This document shows, piece by piece, positions 45,345 to 49,908 of a stretch of 59,689 bases of DNA. Both the position numbers and the translations under genes were made by a program. How positions within the stretch are numbered: position 1 is the stretch's first letter; every line of letters begins with the position of its first letter. This stretch comes from a bacterium (GTDB lineage Bacteria > Actinomycetota > Coriobacteriia > Coriobacteriales > CADBOM01): NCBI GenBank assembly GCA_024698685.1, contig JAILQZ010000094.1:1-59689 (forward strand), written 5' to 3'. Below the pieces are notes generated by a model. The model was given only the letters and a program-made list of their open reading frames with translations. It was not told the DNA's origin and searched no databases.

Positions 45345-45791
45345 CTAGCCCATCTTCTTGATCGCCTCGGAGAACTCCTCGATCGACTTGAAGTCCCTAT
45401 AGACCGAAGCGAACCTGATGTACGCGAGATCGTCGACGTCGCGCAGGCGCGCGAGAACCATGTCGCCAAGGGCGGTGGAGTCGATCTCGGTCTTGTTCTC
45501 CGCGCGGATGTCGTTCTCGATGCCGTCGATGAGATCCTCGAGCTTGCTCGGGGGAACGTCGCGCTTGGCCGTTGCGGTGAGCAGACCGCGCAGCAGCTTC
45601 TTCCTGTCGAATGGCTCGGCGCTGTTGTCTCGCTTTATGACGATGATCGGACGCTCGGCGAAGCGCTCGTAGGTGGTGAACCTGTAGCCGCATTTGGGGC
45701 ATTCGCGGCGTCTGCGCACCGTCTTACCCTCGTCGATGACCCTGGAATCTATAACCTTGGTGTCGGCGTTGTTGCAGCTTGGGCAGAACAT
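45345..45791 (-). CDS. nrdR: Transcriptional repressor NrdR
   Basis: NrdR represses ribonucleotide reductase genes in response to nucleotide binding. The 148-residue protein has the N-terminal zinc ribbon MFCPSCNNADTKVIDSRVIDEGKTVRRRRECPKCGYRFTTYER and an ATP-cone (IVIKRDNSAEPFDRKKLLRGLLTA) followed by YIRFASVYRDFKSIEEF. AGGAGATGG precedes the ATG. It is 75 bp upstream of rapZ and may share its transcript. Confidence 0.95.
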   Translation of the reverse strand: MFCPSCNNADTKVIDSRVIDEGKTVRRRRECPKCGYRFTTYERFAERPIIVIKRDNSAEPFDRKKLLRGLLTATAKRDVPPSKLEDLIDGIENDIRAENKTEIDSTALGDMVLARLRDVDDLAYIRFASVYRDFKSIEEFSEAIKKMG

Positions 45792-45842
45792 AGGCCATCT
45801 CCTGAATCGAGACTATCGAGCAATTCGATTATAGCAAACGTA

Positions 45843-45872
45843 AGAGGCAGACATCGCAAGATGCCTGCCTCT
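45843..45872 (-). terminator. Hairpin after the small SOS-type gene
   Basis: AGAGGCAG-CATC and GATG-CTGCCTCT form a long stem with one mismatch and a GCAA-type loop, between the 95-aa gene and nrdR. The T-run is short (CTCTTACG). Confidence 0.55.
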
Positions 45873-45915
45873 TTGAGCGGGGGATGACGCGTAGGCAAAG
45901 GTGCTCTAGGGAGGG

Positions 45916-46203
45916 CTAGAGAACGATGACCATCGTGATGATCGTAGAGATGGCGAAGGCCGCCAGGCTGCCTATGGAGGCTACCCTATCCTTCCAGGTG
46001 AAGCGCTCGAGGGTGATGCCGCGCGAGGTTCCCTCGCGCATGCTCCTGACCTCGGGAATCGAGTCGAAACGCTCCCTGGCCCTTGCGGGCACCTGGTTGA
46101 TGCCATTGCGGACCGAAGCCATGTCGATCGAGCGATGGGTGCCGCTGCTGCCCATCCGGCGAGAACGCCCGCCAATAACCGCGGCATTTGAATTCGAAGC
46201 CAT
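45916..46203 (-). CDS. Small tail-anchored membrane protein divergent from lexA (SOS candidate)
   Basis: The 95-residue ORF starts with MASNSNAAVIGGRSRRMGSS after a strong AGGAGG. The first 70 residues are hydrophilic and arginine-rich. The protein ends in one membrane segment (VASIGSLAAFAISTIITMVIVL), so its basic N-terminus should face the cytoplasm. There is no LysM domain. It shares its upstream region with lexA, which holds three LexA boxes, so it is probably DNA-damage inducible. In other Gram-positives this position encodes division inhibitors such as YneA or DivS, to which I see no sequence similarity. Function is inferred from position only. Confidence 0.75.
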   Translation of the reverse strand: MASNSNAAVIGGRSRRMGSSGTHRSIDMASVRNGINQVPARARERFDSIPEVRSMREGTSRGITLERFTWKDRVASIGSLAAFAISTIITMVIVL

Positions 46204-46277
46204 GCTGTCCTCCTTCTATCGCGCCCGTGTCATCTGCCGAGAACATCTAACATCAGGCACCGGACAAAAATGACATA

Positions 46278-46289
46278 GAACGTTTGTTC
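46278..46289. promoter_or_regulatory. LexA box 1 (perfect)
   Basis: GAACGTTTGTTC matches the Gram-positive SOS consensus GAAC-N4-GTTC exactly. It is the box nearest the 95-aa gene. Confidence 0.88.
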
Positions 46290-46305
46290 GATAACATCAT
46301 ATATC

Positions 46306-46317
46306 GAATATTTGTTC
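46306..46317. promoter_or_regulatory. LexA box 2 (one mismatch)
   Basis: GAATATTTGTTC within CGAATATTTGTTCG, one change from consensus, 28 bp from box 1. Confidence 0.8.
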
Positions 46318-46334
46318 GAATCAAGAGAAAATTC

Positions 46335-46346
46335 GAACATTTGTTT
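46335..46346. promoter_or_regulatory. LexA box 3 (one mismatch), at the lexA -35
   Basis: GAACATTTGTTT within CGAACATTTGTTTG, 29 bp from box 2. Its right end overlaps the lexA -35 hexamer, as expected for autorepression. Confidence 0.82.
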
Positions 46347-46373
46347 GATTTTTTTCGGGCGAATGCATATACT
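46345..46373 (+). promoter_or_regulatory. Promoter of lexA
   Basis: TTGATT (46345-46350), a 17-base spacer and TATACT (46368-46373), 31 bp upstream of the lexA GTG start. Confidence 0.8.
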
Positions 46374-46404: not shown

Positions 46405-47064
46405 GTGGCCGGAAAAGAGAAACTCACCCAGCGCCAACAGCAAGTGCTCGACTGCATCAAAGAGTCCATCAAGGAAAACGGCTATCCGCCCAGCGTCAGG
46501 GAGATCTGCGCCAAGGTGGGGCTCAAGTCGTCCTCGTCCGTCCAGTCGCACCTCGACGCGCTCGAGCGCAAGGGCTACCTCAAGCGCAACTCGTCGTCGG
46601 CCAGGGCGCTCACGGTCGAGAGCTCCAAGGACGCCGATCAGGGATTCTCCGCCGAGGATGCCCAGGTTCTTGAGGAGGTCAGCCGCAACACCGTTCCCCT
46701 CCCCCTCGTCGGCAAGGTCGCCGCGGGCAGCCCCATCCTCGCCGAGCAGAACATCGAGGAGGTCATCGGCCTGCCCAAGCAGCTCGTAGGCGATGCCAAC
46801 TCCTTCATGCTCACCGTCTCAGGCGAGTCGATGATCGAAGCGGGCATCTTCGATGGCGACATCGTCGTAGTCACCGAGCAGAAGAGCGCCAACAACGGCG
46901 AGATCGTCGTCGCCATGATCGACGGCGAGGCCACGGTCAAGGTCTTCTACAAGGAGGATGGCCGCATCCGCCTGCAGCCAGCCAACTCCACGATGGAGCC
47001 CATCTACGCCGATGACGTGCAGATCCTCGGCAAGGTCAAGGCGCTGATCCGCCAGTTCAGGTAG
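46405..47064 (+). CDS. lexA: LexA SOS repressor
   Basis: LexA represses the SOS regulon and self-cleaves on RecA activation. The 219-residue protein starts at a GTG (VAGKEKLTQRQQQVLDC) after CAGGAGAGGAG; the track start at 46312 lies upstream of the promoter. It has the winged helix-turn-helix (GYPPSVREICAKVGLKSSSSVQSHLDALERKGYL), the Ala-Gly cleavage site VAAGSP, the catalytic serine in SGESM and the lysine in GEATVKVF. Autoregulated by box 3. Confidence 0.97.
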   Translation: MAGKEKLTQRQQQVLDCIKESIKENGYPPSVREICAKVGLKSSSSVQSHLDALERKGYLKRNSSSARALTVESSKDADQGFSAEDAQVLEEVSRNTVPLPLVGKVAAGSPILAEQNIEEVIGLPKQLVGDANSFMLTVSGESMIEAGIFDGDIVVVTEQKSANNGEIVVAMIDGEATVKVFYKEDGRIRLQPANSTMEPIYADDVQILGKVKALIRQFR

Positions 47065-47946: not shown

Positions 47947-48136
47947 CTCCGCCCCTTCTCTTATCGACGCGTTTGCATAATTGTAGCCAATTATCGGGGA
48001 ATTGGGGATGGCAACCGCATGAGGGCGGGCAGTTGACAGCGCGGGCGCAGAAGTGTCAACATCAGGCGTGATGATCCGCTTGTGTTGATGGGCGCGCCAC
48101 GGGAAGACCGCATGGCTGCACATGCGAGGGGAAGAG

Positions 48137-49516
48137 ATGGCGAAGAAGAATTCAGCGTTGGTGACGAAGCTCTATCGCGCGCTCAGCGTCGTTCAGAGCT
48201 ATGCCATGGCGACCAAGATCAGCGCAATCGAGACAGCCAGCGCAATCGCAGGCGTGCTCGTCGGCGGCATCGAGATCTTCGCCAACCTCGGCGGCGACGC
48301 CTCCGAGTACTCCGGGCTGATCCTCATCGCATGCGGCATCGCGATCCTCGTCCCGTTCATCCGCGCCTTCGCGTCGATCAGGACGAGCCGCTTCGGCCAC
48401 ACCATCCAGAGCAGCAAGATGTACCACGACGACGTGCAGAGCCGCCTGAAGCTCAGCCCCAACTACATCGCCAACGGCTACGAGATCCGCGACTTCGTCG
48501 ACGGCGGCGTGACCGAGCGCTACGTCGCGAGCGACCTGGTCGACCGCAGCCTTATCCGCGGATCCTTCCACCCCGAGCAGGCCAACCCGCTGTACCTCGA
48601 CAAGGGCGGCTACAGCATCCCCGACGAGGTGCGCCCGCTGGCCATCGGCATCATCTCCACCATCCTGCGCAAGGGCAAATCGAAGCGCCTGACCAACGGC
48701 AAGCTCACGCGCCAGAGCACCGACCTGCTGCCCGAGGACCCGAGCTTCAAGACCTGCGTGGTGAACAAGGTGCGCTACTTCGACGGCCAGTGCACACACG
48801 AGATCGTCTACAAGCAGGCGCCGAGCAAGCGATCGATCGACGAGTGCTTCAAGGGCGAGGCGCTGCTGATGGACGAGAGCGGCGAGCTCATAGAGCTGTG
48901 GCGCAGCAGGTGCGCGAACTTCATGGGCGCCTCGACCATCGCGATCACTCGCGACCTCAAGCTCATCCTCAACGTGCAGGGCAAGCAGAGCATGGCCAAC
49001 GCGGGGCGCTGCGCCCCGTCGGGCTCGGGCTCGGTAGAGTTCTCCGACTGCACGCTGGTCTTGGGGCGGAGCGCCAACGCCATGCTGCCGGCGCTTATAA
49101 CCCAGGCGGCCGAGCGCGAGCTGCACGAGGAGTGCGCGCTGAAGCTCGGCAGCAGCAAGATGAGGAGCTACCTCATCGGCTACGCACGCCTGCTCGAGCG
49201 CGGCGGCAAGCCCGACTTCTTCTGCGTGACGTTCCTCGACATGAGCTCCCAGCAGCTCGTCAGCGAGTACCTCGGCAACATCTCCGCGGGCGAGATGGAC
49301 CTCGGCACCGTTCCTGATCCGGTCGACATCGCGGATCCCCTGCATCCCTCGCAGGCGCTTGCCAGGGCGCTCGCCAAACGCGCCGCGGACAACCCTGGCC
49401 AGCACTCCATCTCGATCCAGCTCCACATCCTCGTGCACAACCTCGAGCTCTTCGAGGCCACAGAGGAAGGCCGTGCGGCGCTGGCTCAGTGGGCCGAGAG
49501 CGGCCAGCTCGGCTAG
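48137..49516 (+). CDS. Two-TM membrane protein with C-terminal NUDIX-like domain (Cap16-like architecture)
   Basis: The 459-residue protein starts at the ATG after GAGGGGAAGAG. Two membrane segments lie near residues 32-50 and 58-78, then a 240-residue soluble region, then a NUDIX-like domain. Its helix AAERELHEECALKLG (about 324-338) keeps the RE-x-x-x-EE catalytic core, but the first glutamate and the final glycine of the NUDIX box are replaced by alanine. Two TM segments plus NUDIX is the layout of the CBASS effector class called Cap16/2TM-NUDIX. No CD-NTase gene is in the window, so the defence role is a hypothesis. Convergent with the SRPBCC gene. Confidence 0.65.
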   Translation: MAKKNSALVTKLYRALSVVQSYAMATKISAIETASAIAGVLVGGIEIFANLGGDASEYSGLILIACGIAILVPFIRAFASIRTSRFGHTIQSSKMYHDDVQSRLKLSPNYIANGYEIRDFVDGGVTERYVASDLVDRSLIRGSFHPEQANPLYLDKGGYSIPDEVRPLAIGIISTILRKGKSKRLTNGKLTRQSTDLLPEDPSFKTCVVNKVRYFDGQCTHEIVYKQAPSKRSIDECFKGEALLMDESGELIELWRSRCANFMGASTIAITRDLKLILNVQGKQSMANAGRCAPSGSGSVEFSDCTLVLGRSANAMLPALITQAAERELHEECALKLGSSKMRSYLIGYARLLERGGKPDFFCVTFLDMSSQQLVSEYLGNISAGEMDLGTVPDPVDIADPLHPSQALARALAKRAADNPGQHSISIQLHILVHNLELFEATEEGRAALAQWAESGQLG

Positions 49517-49551: not shown

Positions 49552-49579
49552 TGCAATTATTTGCGATTGTGCACGATTT
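49552..49579 (+). repeat. 28-bp repeat, copy 1 (direct)
   Basis: TGCAATTATTTGCGATTGTG followed by CACGATTT. It is identical to copy 2, whose start is 50 bp further on. Confidence 0.9.
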
Positions 49580-49601
49580 CGGCCATTTTCCGTCGACGCG
49601 A

Positions 49602-49629
49602 TGCAATTATTTGCGATTGTGCACGATTT
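49602..49629 (+). repeat. 28-bp repeat, copy 2 (direct)
   Basis: Exact copy of the unit at 49552-49579, offset by 50 bp. Confidence 0.9.
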
Positions 49630-49721
49630 TTCGACGAGGTTTGGATTTCGCAAAAACAGACAACCCCTCTGACCTGCGGTTTTGCTGAAACAGATGCCGC
49701 TCTTTCGGATCGGCTCGCAAA

Positions 49722-49734
49722 AAATCGTGCACAA
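49722..49734 (-). repeat. Core repeat, copy 3 (inverted, short)
   Basis: AAATCGTGCACAA is the reverse complement of the TTGTGCACGATTT core of copies 1 and 2. Similarity ends soon after. Confidence 0.85.
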
Positions 49735-49771
49735 CTTGATATTTTTGCACTCGACCTGACGCAGAGTGCGA

Positions 49772-49792
49772 AAATCGTGCACAATCGCAAAT
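49772..49792 (-). repeat. Core repeat, copy 4 (inverted)
   Basis: AAATCGTGCACAATCGCAAA plus one more base, the reverse complement of 21 bases of copies 1 and 2. It starts exactly 50 bp after copy 3. Confidence 0.88.
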
Positions 49793-49908
49793 TTTGGCAA
49801 CGGTTTCGTTACAACTCGGCTCTCGGAGACATCGGCGACATAAGATTCGAGCGCCGGCCTGCGCCAACGCCCGAATCGAATCGCTATTTTGCAATAATCT
49901 GCAGCCCC

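Follow-up and report, generated by a model that had tools for sequence, protein, structure and literature searches.

A tail-anchored, LysM-less protein encoded beside lexA as a probable SOS-induced division inhibitor in Coriobacteriales

Introduction

The genes adjacent to lexA that have been characterized in Bacillus, Listeria, Mycobacterium, Corynebacterium and Staphylococcus code for division inhibitors (PMC6851548). In Bacillus subtilis the helix of YneA binds TM7 of FtsW, thereby reaching the divisome, and its LysM domain is needed for the block of septal wall synthesis: YneA without LysM still localizes but does not inhibit (PMC13396833). According to a review, LysM is not needed for the function of the mycobacterial ChiZ (PMC3989709). 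Here we describe a gene, designated X, from a coriobacterial draft genome (the window, that is, the whole stretch of DNA analyzed, comprises 59,689 nucleotides), whose product is probably an SOS-induced division inhibitor and a positional ortholog of the LysM proteins of the YneA/ChiZ kind, drawn from a clade in which the external LysM is absent.

The X gene and its product

The X gene (45916-46203, minus strand) begins with an ATG and codes for a 95-aa tail-anchored membrane protein, a LysM-less member of the lexA-divergent family. The sequence 5' of its start, AGAAGGAGGACAGC-ATG, contains a ribosome-binding site, AGGAGG, that can be read directly at 46209-46214 (minus strand) with a spacing of 5 nt to the ATG. 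Judged by the codon usage of the neighboring genes, the frame of X alone fits (+0.28 bits/codon), while the five other frames score negative; a shadow ORF on the plus strand (45926-46273) was rejected on codon fit. The cytoplasmic part spans 76 residues and is basic, with 14 K+R versus 7 D+E, and is followed by a C-terminal membrane helix at residues 77-95 (IGSLAAFAISTIITMVIVL; 45919-45975, minus strand) recognized from hydropathy and AlphaFold2. The latter predicts one confident helix at 70-94 (pLDDT >90) reaching the C-terminus, whereas residues 1-18 have pLDDT <50; the membrane helix thus takes up the last 19-22 residues, with none beyond it. From the charge distribution we infer a single-helix topology with the N-terminus inside. 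Hence, the strong ribosome-binding site, basic N-terminus and C-terminal membrane anchor proposed by an earlier sequence-only reading of this DNA are all borne out.

Searches with X against Pfam, NCBIfam, PHROGs, PADLOC and PDB sequences revealed no homology to known families, and the NCBIfam YneA model NF010723 was likewise unmatched (0 families matched). An extracytoplasmic LysM is absent from X, as indicated by the Pfam search and by the lack of any residues outside the membrane. On the cytoplasmic side, close to the helix, X bears the motif MREGTSRG (residues 55-62; 46018-46041, minus strand), which follows a pattern common to the LysM-less forms, phi-R-x-G-[STD]-x-x-G; the core RxG[ST]xxG spans R56-G62.

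LexA boxes and the SOS regulon

Three predicted LexA boxes lie between X and lexA with spacings of 28 and 29 bp. Both genes have promoter-like sites that the boxes overlap: box 1 (AGAACGTTTGTTCG, 46277-46290) closely follows the -10 of X, box 2 (CGAATATTTGTTCG, 46305-46318) sits between its -35 and -10, and box 3 (CGAACATTTGTTTG, 46334-46347) overlaps the -35 of lexA. The two promoter-like sites, TTGATT-17-TATGAT for X (46296-46324, minus strand) and TTGATT-17-TATACT for lexA (46345-46373, plus strand), were assigned by consensus match. No dinucleotide shuffle of the intergenic region contained three boxes (0/5000), and the previously noted control region shared with lexA, with its three boxes, is thereby confirmed. 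Moreover, the box in its perfect form, CGAACATTTGTTCG, precedes recA, dinB and ruvC-ruvA in the window genome; the boxes are therefore those of a working SOS regulon. X is very probably made upon DNA damage: LexA bound to the three boxes would repress lexA and X together, and its RecA-promoted cleavage would free both promoters.

Conservation of the lexA-X-nrdR locus

In the window, X is flanked by lexA (46405-47064, plus strand; 219 aa, with Pfam PF01726 (LexA_DNA_bind) and PF00717 (Peptidase_S24)) and by its conserved downstream neighbor nrdR (45345-45791, minus strand; 148 aa, with the Pfam Zn_ribbon_NrdR and ATP-cone domains). Between X and nrdR, a hairpin with 14-bp arms, one mismatch and a GCAA loop can be read directly at 45842-45873 and is a candidate terminator; a consensus terminator scan did not call it. 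With lexA and nrdR serving as anchors, the gene divergent from lexA was examined in about 100 Coriobacteriales genomes and in about 40 genomes from other classes of Actinomycetota. The arrangement lexA/boxes/X/nrdR recurs throughout the order. A candidate X was present at 87 loci of the order; at 55 of these, two or more boxes occur at a spacing of 26-31 bp, and at 43 there are three boxes. At loci with lexA on the minus strand, mscL, hflX and DUF1624-like genes are found downstream of lexA. The earlier suggestion that X occupies the position of SOS division inhibitors is thus backed by a locus conserved across the order, whereas its description as lineage-specific does not hold: X is one of a family of positional orthologs that spans the order.

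The recurrent nrdR neighborhood, along with a conserved cytoplasmic motif that has no known partner, could also be taken to mean that X serves some other damage-related task at the membrane, as a signaling anchor, a protease substrate or a regulator of dNTP supply together with nrdR, rather than in division. We regard this as quite unlikely, given that the characterized genes at the lexA-adjacent position are division inhibitors (PMC6851548), that nrdR is not universally adjacent, the Eggerthella lenta genome being an exception, and that in the window the hairpin separates the two genes.

Two further features lie on the other side of lexA. At 48122-49516, between a serine acetyltransferase-like gene and a repeat element, lies an ORF of 464 aa whose N-terminal part is hydrophobic and which has no match in Pfam or PADLOC. 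The repeat element itself (49552-49799) consists of four copies, two direct and two inverted, of a 22-28 nt unit around AAATCGTGCACAA; when folded, it forms a long hairpin (-106.8 kcal/mol, z -7.5). Its 13-mer occurs 25 times in the window genome. Clusters with this arrangement of two direct plus inverted copies are present on at least six contigs, and they have a common center, ACAACCCCTCTGACCTGCGGTTTTGCTGA, in either orientation. The element is thus a dispersed palindromic repeat of about 250 bp, perhaps MITE-like.

Two forms of X, with and without LysM

The survey uncovered two forms of the lexA-divergent protein. The first, with a YneA/ChiZ-like layout, combines a cytoplasmic part, one helix and an external LysM. 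It is seen in all 17 loci of Coriobacteriaceae (f10; including Collinsella, L066), in 22 of Atopobiaceae (f4; including Olsenella, L114), where two genomes of genus g38 are the exception, in both loci of family f3, and also in basal Coriobacteriia and most loci sampled from other Actinomycetota classes. The LysM domain of these proteins was confirmed by Pfam, and among NCBIfam models they match that of YneA, NF010723, best (6e-13 and 4e-12), under its curated cut-off. The second form stops at the helix and is found in the family of the window (f1), in Eggerthellaceae (f2, whose sample includes E. lenta, G059, and Cryptobacterium curtum, G003) and in families f5, f6, f8 and f9. In these LysM-less proteins, X of the window among them, at most 6 residues follow the C-terminal helix, a range set partly by choice since the survey filter let up to 12 residues follow it. 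The E. lenta protein (L219), for instance, begins with MKNFEMNCPVEGTSAL and ends in ASLFAGF. Family f5 has very short forms (44-58 aa), which are less certain, as X was called via a hydropathy filter. Besides the window genome, f1 comprises two genomes; one of these, which is 59% complete, gave no match.

Loci L059 and L229 stand apart: in family f7 the helix is followed by a short external tail of about 20 residues that lacks LysM, and in f3 genome G004 a LysM-like protein is accompanied by no box recognizable with the pattern used. X was not found beside lexA in about half of f5, nor in genus g5 of Atopobiaceae; at such loci (L200, L141, L145, L147 and L148) lexA and the boxes are kept while X is missing. 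Thus, the checkpoint gene has apparently been lost in some f5 genomes and in genus g5, and is therefore dispensable.

An SOS-induced membrane toxin of the TisB kind, which would depolarize the membrane and slow growth or promote persistence with no specific target in the divisome, would equally be LexA-controlled and be a small protein ending in a single short helix. However, X is much longer than TisB and has a conserved cytoplasmic segment, and its orthologs carry a wall-binding LysM, making such a role very unlikely.

Homology of the two forms and loss of LysM

A profile built from the N-termini of the LysM forms only matches 27 of 43 LysM-less forms (p<0.02 against their own shuffles; Fisher 2e-30, computed on related rows), and the shared N-terminal core G[TSN]xAL is present in 36 of 41 LysM forms and 28 of 44 LysM-less forms, against about one expected. 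The core is absent from both f1 proteins, X and its sister, neither of which is matched by the LysM-form N-terminal profile (p=0.61 and p=0.42, respectively). The two match each other directly (E=1.5e-4). Closer to the membrane, phi-R-x-G-[STD]-x-x-G is found in 23 of the 44 LysM-less forms (shuffled mean 0.22) and in none of the 41 LysM forms. As this motif was noticed in the same data and the rows are related, the figures to trust are those from a hold-out profile trained without f1, which scores the sister protein at 17.3 bits (1/5000 shuffles as good, p 0.0002) and X at a modest 9.8 bits (31/5000 shuffles as good, p ~0.006). X is hence tied to the family through the sister families, its position and its juxtamembrane part, and not through its own N-terminus. 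The earlier remark that X shows no similarity to division inhibitors stands for its sequence taken singly, which matches no protein of the YneA, ChiZ or DivS type; it fails once the intermediates are considered, with the LysM forms reaching the LysM-less ones through the N-terminus and these in turn reaching X through the juxtamembrane region.

Recognition of LysM-less forms by a LysM-form profile indicates that LysM was lost, and its presence outside Coriobacteriales makes loss the simplest reading. In a LexA tree, f1, f2, f5, f6, f8 and f9 fall on one side, with moderate support at the base of this LysM-less clade (91/68), and f10 and f4 on the other (98/91). Three changes of form suffice on this tree, in which f1 and f5 are sister families. 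Most simply, then, a single loss of LysM would have occurred at the base of the LysM-less group, with separate losses in g38 and f7. No LysM domain was found anywhere in the window genome (94% complete), and the notion of a LysM half encoded elsewhere in it was rejected. In the LysM-less families any LysM at all is present in only 3 of 37 sampled genomes, never beside lexA; in f4 and f10 it occurs in 18 of 21, and in most of these the SOS protein is the sole LysM protein. Among the genomes sampled, LysM is thus nearly extinct in Coriobacteriales, with the SOS protein as its last holder.

Alternatively, X could be a relic still under LexA control that, having shed LysM, has lost the ability to stop division and is now drifting. 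The inactivity of LysM-less YneA in B. subtilis (PMC13396833), the fast divergence of the family, the very short f5 forms and the absence of X from some genomes would all be in keeping with it. Against this, dN/dS values of 0.15-0.56 in 12 close pairs point to purifying selection, the N-terminal and juxtamembrane motifs are conserved across families, and the boxes, the helix and the exact ending at the membrane have been maintained in six LysM-less families. We therefore consider decay unlikely and favor X as a division inhibitor under selection.

Comparison with characterized inhibitors

Like X, B. subtilis YneA is a small bitopic protein encoded divergently from lexA behind LexA boxes, with a single helix and its N-terminus inside. 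However, the N-terminus of YneA is short and its external LysM is essential for inhibition (PMC13396833), whereas the cytoplasmic part of X is long and basic, the helix forms its end and LysM is absent; X has no sequence match to YneA. ChiZ/Rv2719c of Mycobacterium and similar Actinomycetota LysM proteins (L215, L216, L257) share with X the lexA-X-nrdR position, the basic cytoplasmic N-terminus and the one helix, but unlike X have a LysM after it; the reported dispensability of LysM in ChiZ (PMC3989709) would fit a LysM-less form. Corynebacterium glutamicum DivS is, by its description, SOS-induced, encoded beside lexA and endowed with one helix and no LysM (PMC6851548, PMC3989709), yet it is also described as having a predicted external C-terminal part (PMC6851548), of which X has none. 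Staphylococcus aureus SosA, likewise divergent from lexA and free of LysM, has the reverse layout: its helix lies near the N-terminus (residues 10-30), and toxicity depends on a conserved C-terminal part outside the membrane (PMC6851548, PMC13396833).

The LysM proteins from relatives of Collinsella and Olsenella agree with the LysM-less forms in locus and box spacing, and G[TSN]xAL is common to them and most LysM-less forms; they possess LysM and lack the juxtamembrane RxG[ST]xxG. The mycobacteria-like LysM proteins (L215, L216, L257) display a cytoplasmic segment before the helix, [LPQ]RYxGxGVxxS (also written LRYxGxGVxMS), which by eye resembles the LRYGTxxGR of LysM-less forms; the two could be an older shared motif. 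The alphaproteobacterium Caulobacter has the 29-aa SidA, which by description is, like X, LexA-regulated, small and little more than a helix, and which acts through FtsW; it has no cytoplasmic part comparable to that of X.

Proposed mode of action

Once made, X would insert its C-terminal helix into the membrane and keep its basic tail in the cytoplasm. Like the helix of YneA, that of X would engage the septal wall machinery, with FtsW the most likely contact, and division would pause. FtsW-family proteins are present in the window genome. X has no external part with which to hold nascent glycan, as YneA is thought to do; if X stops division, it must act from within the membrane or the cytoplasm. 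The need of B. subtilis YneA for its LysM further implies that the LysM-less family either acts differently or has lost activity. Any inhibition must then originate either in the helix or in RxG[ST]xxG, whose position beside the membrane on the cytoplasmic side makes it the obvious candidate. More tentatively, a tail-anchored protein with nothing outside the membrane may serve as the DNA-damage division checkpoint of the entire clade (Eggerthellaceae plus at least five related families), glycan-binding inhibition having been replaced by a mechanism based on the helix and RxG[ST]xxG. On our best reading, X would be a known kind of SOS division brake, and what is new is its form, reduced to a tail and a helix.

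Significance

An open-access literature search found no paper on a division checkpoint in Eggerthella or its relatives, and X would be the first candidate for one in these common gut bacteria. Work on YneA holds the wall-binding LysM half to be essential and the review of work on ChiZ holds that it is not; the LysM-less clade amounts to a natural deletion, in which the SOS locus has retained the boxes, the helix and the cytoplasmic part, while LysM has gone and a conserved membrane-side motif appears to have been gained. The LysM-less X proteins thus offer a direct test of how SOS checkpoints halt septal wall synthesis.
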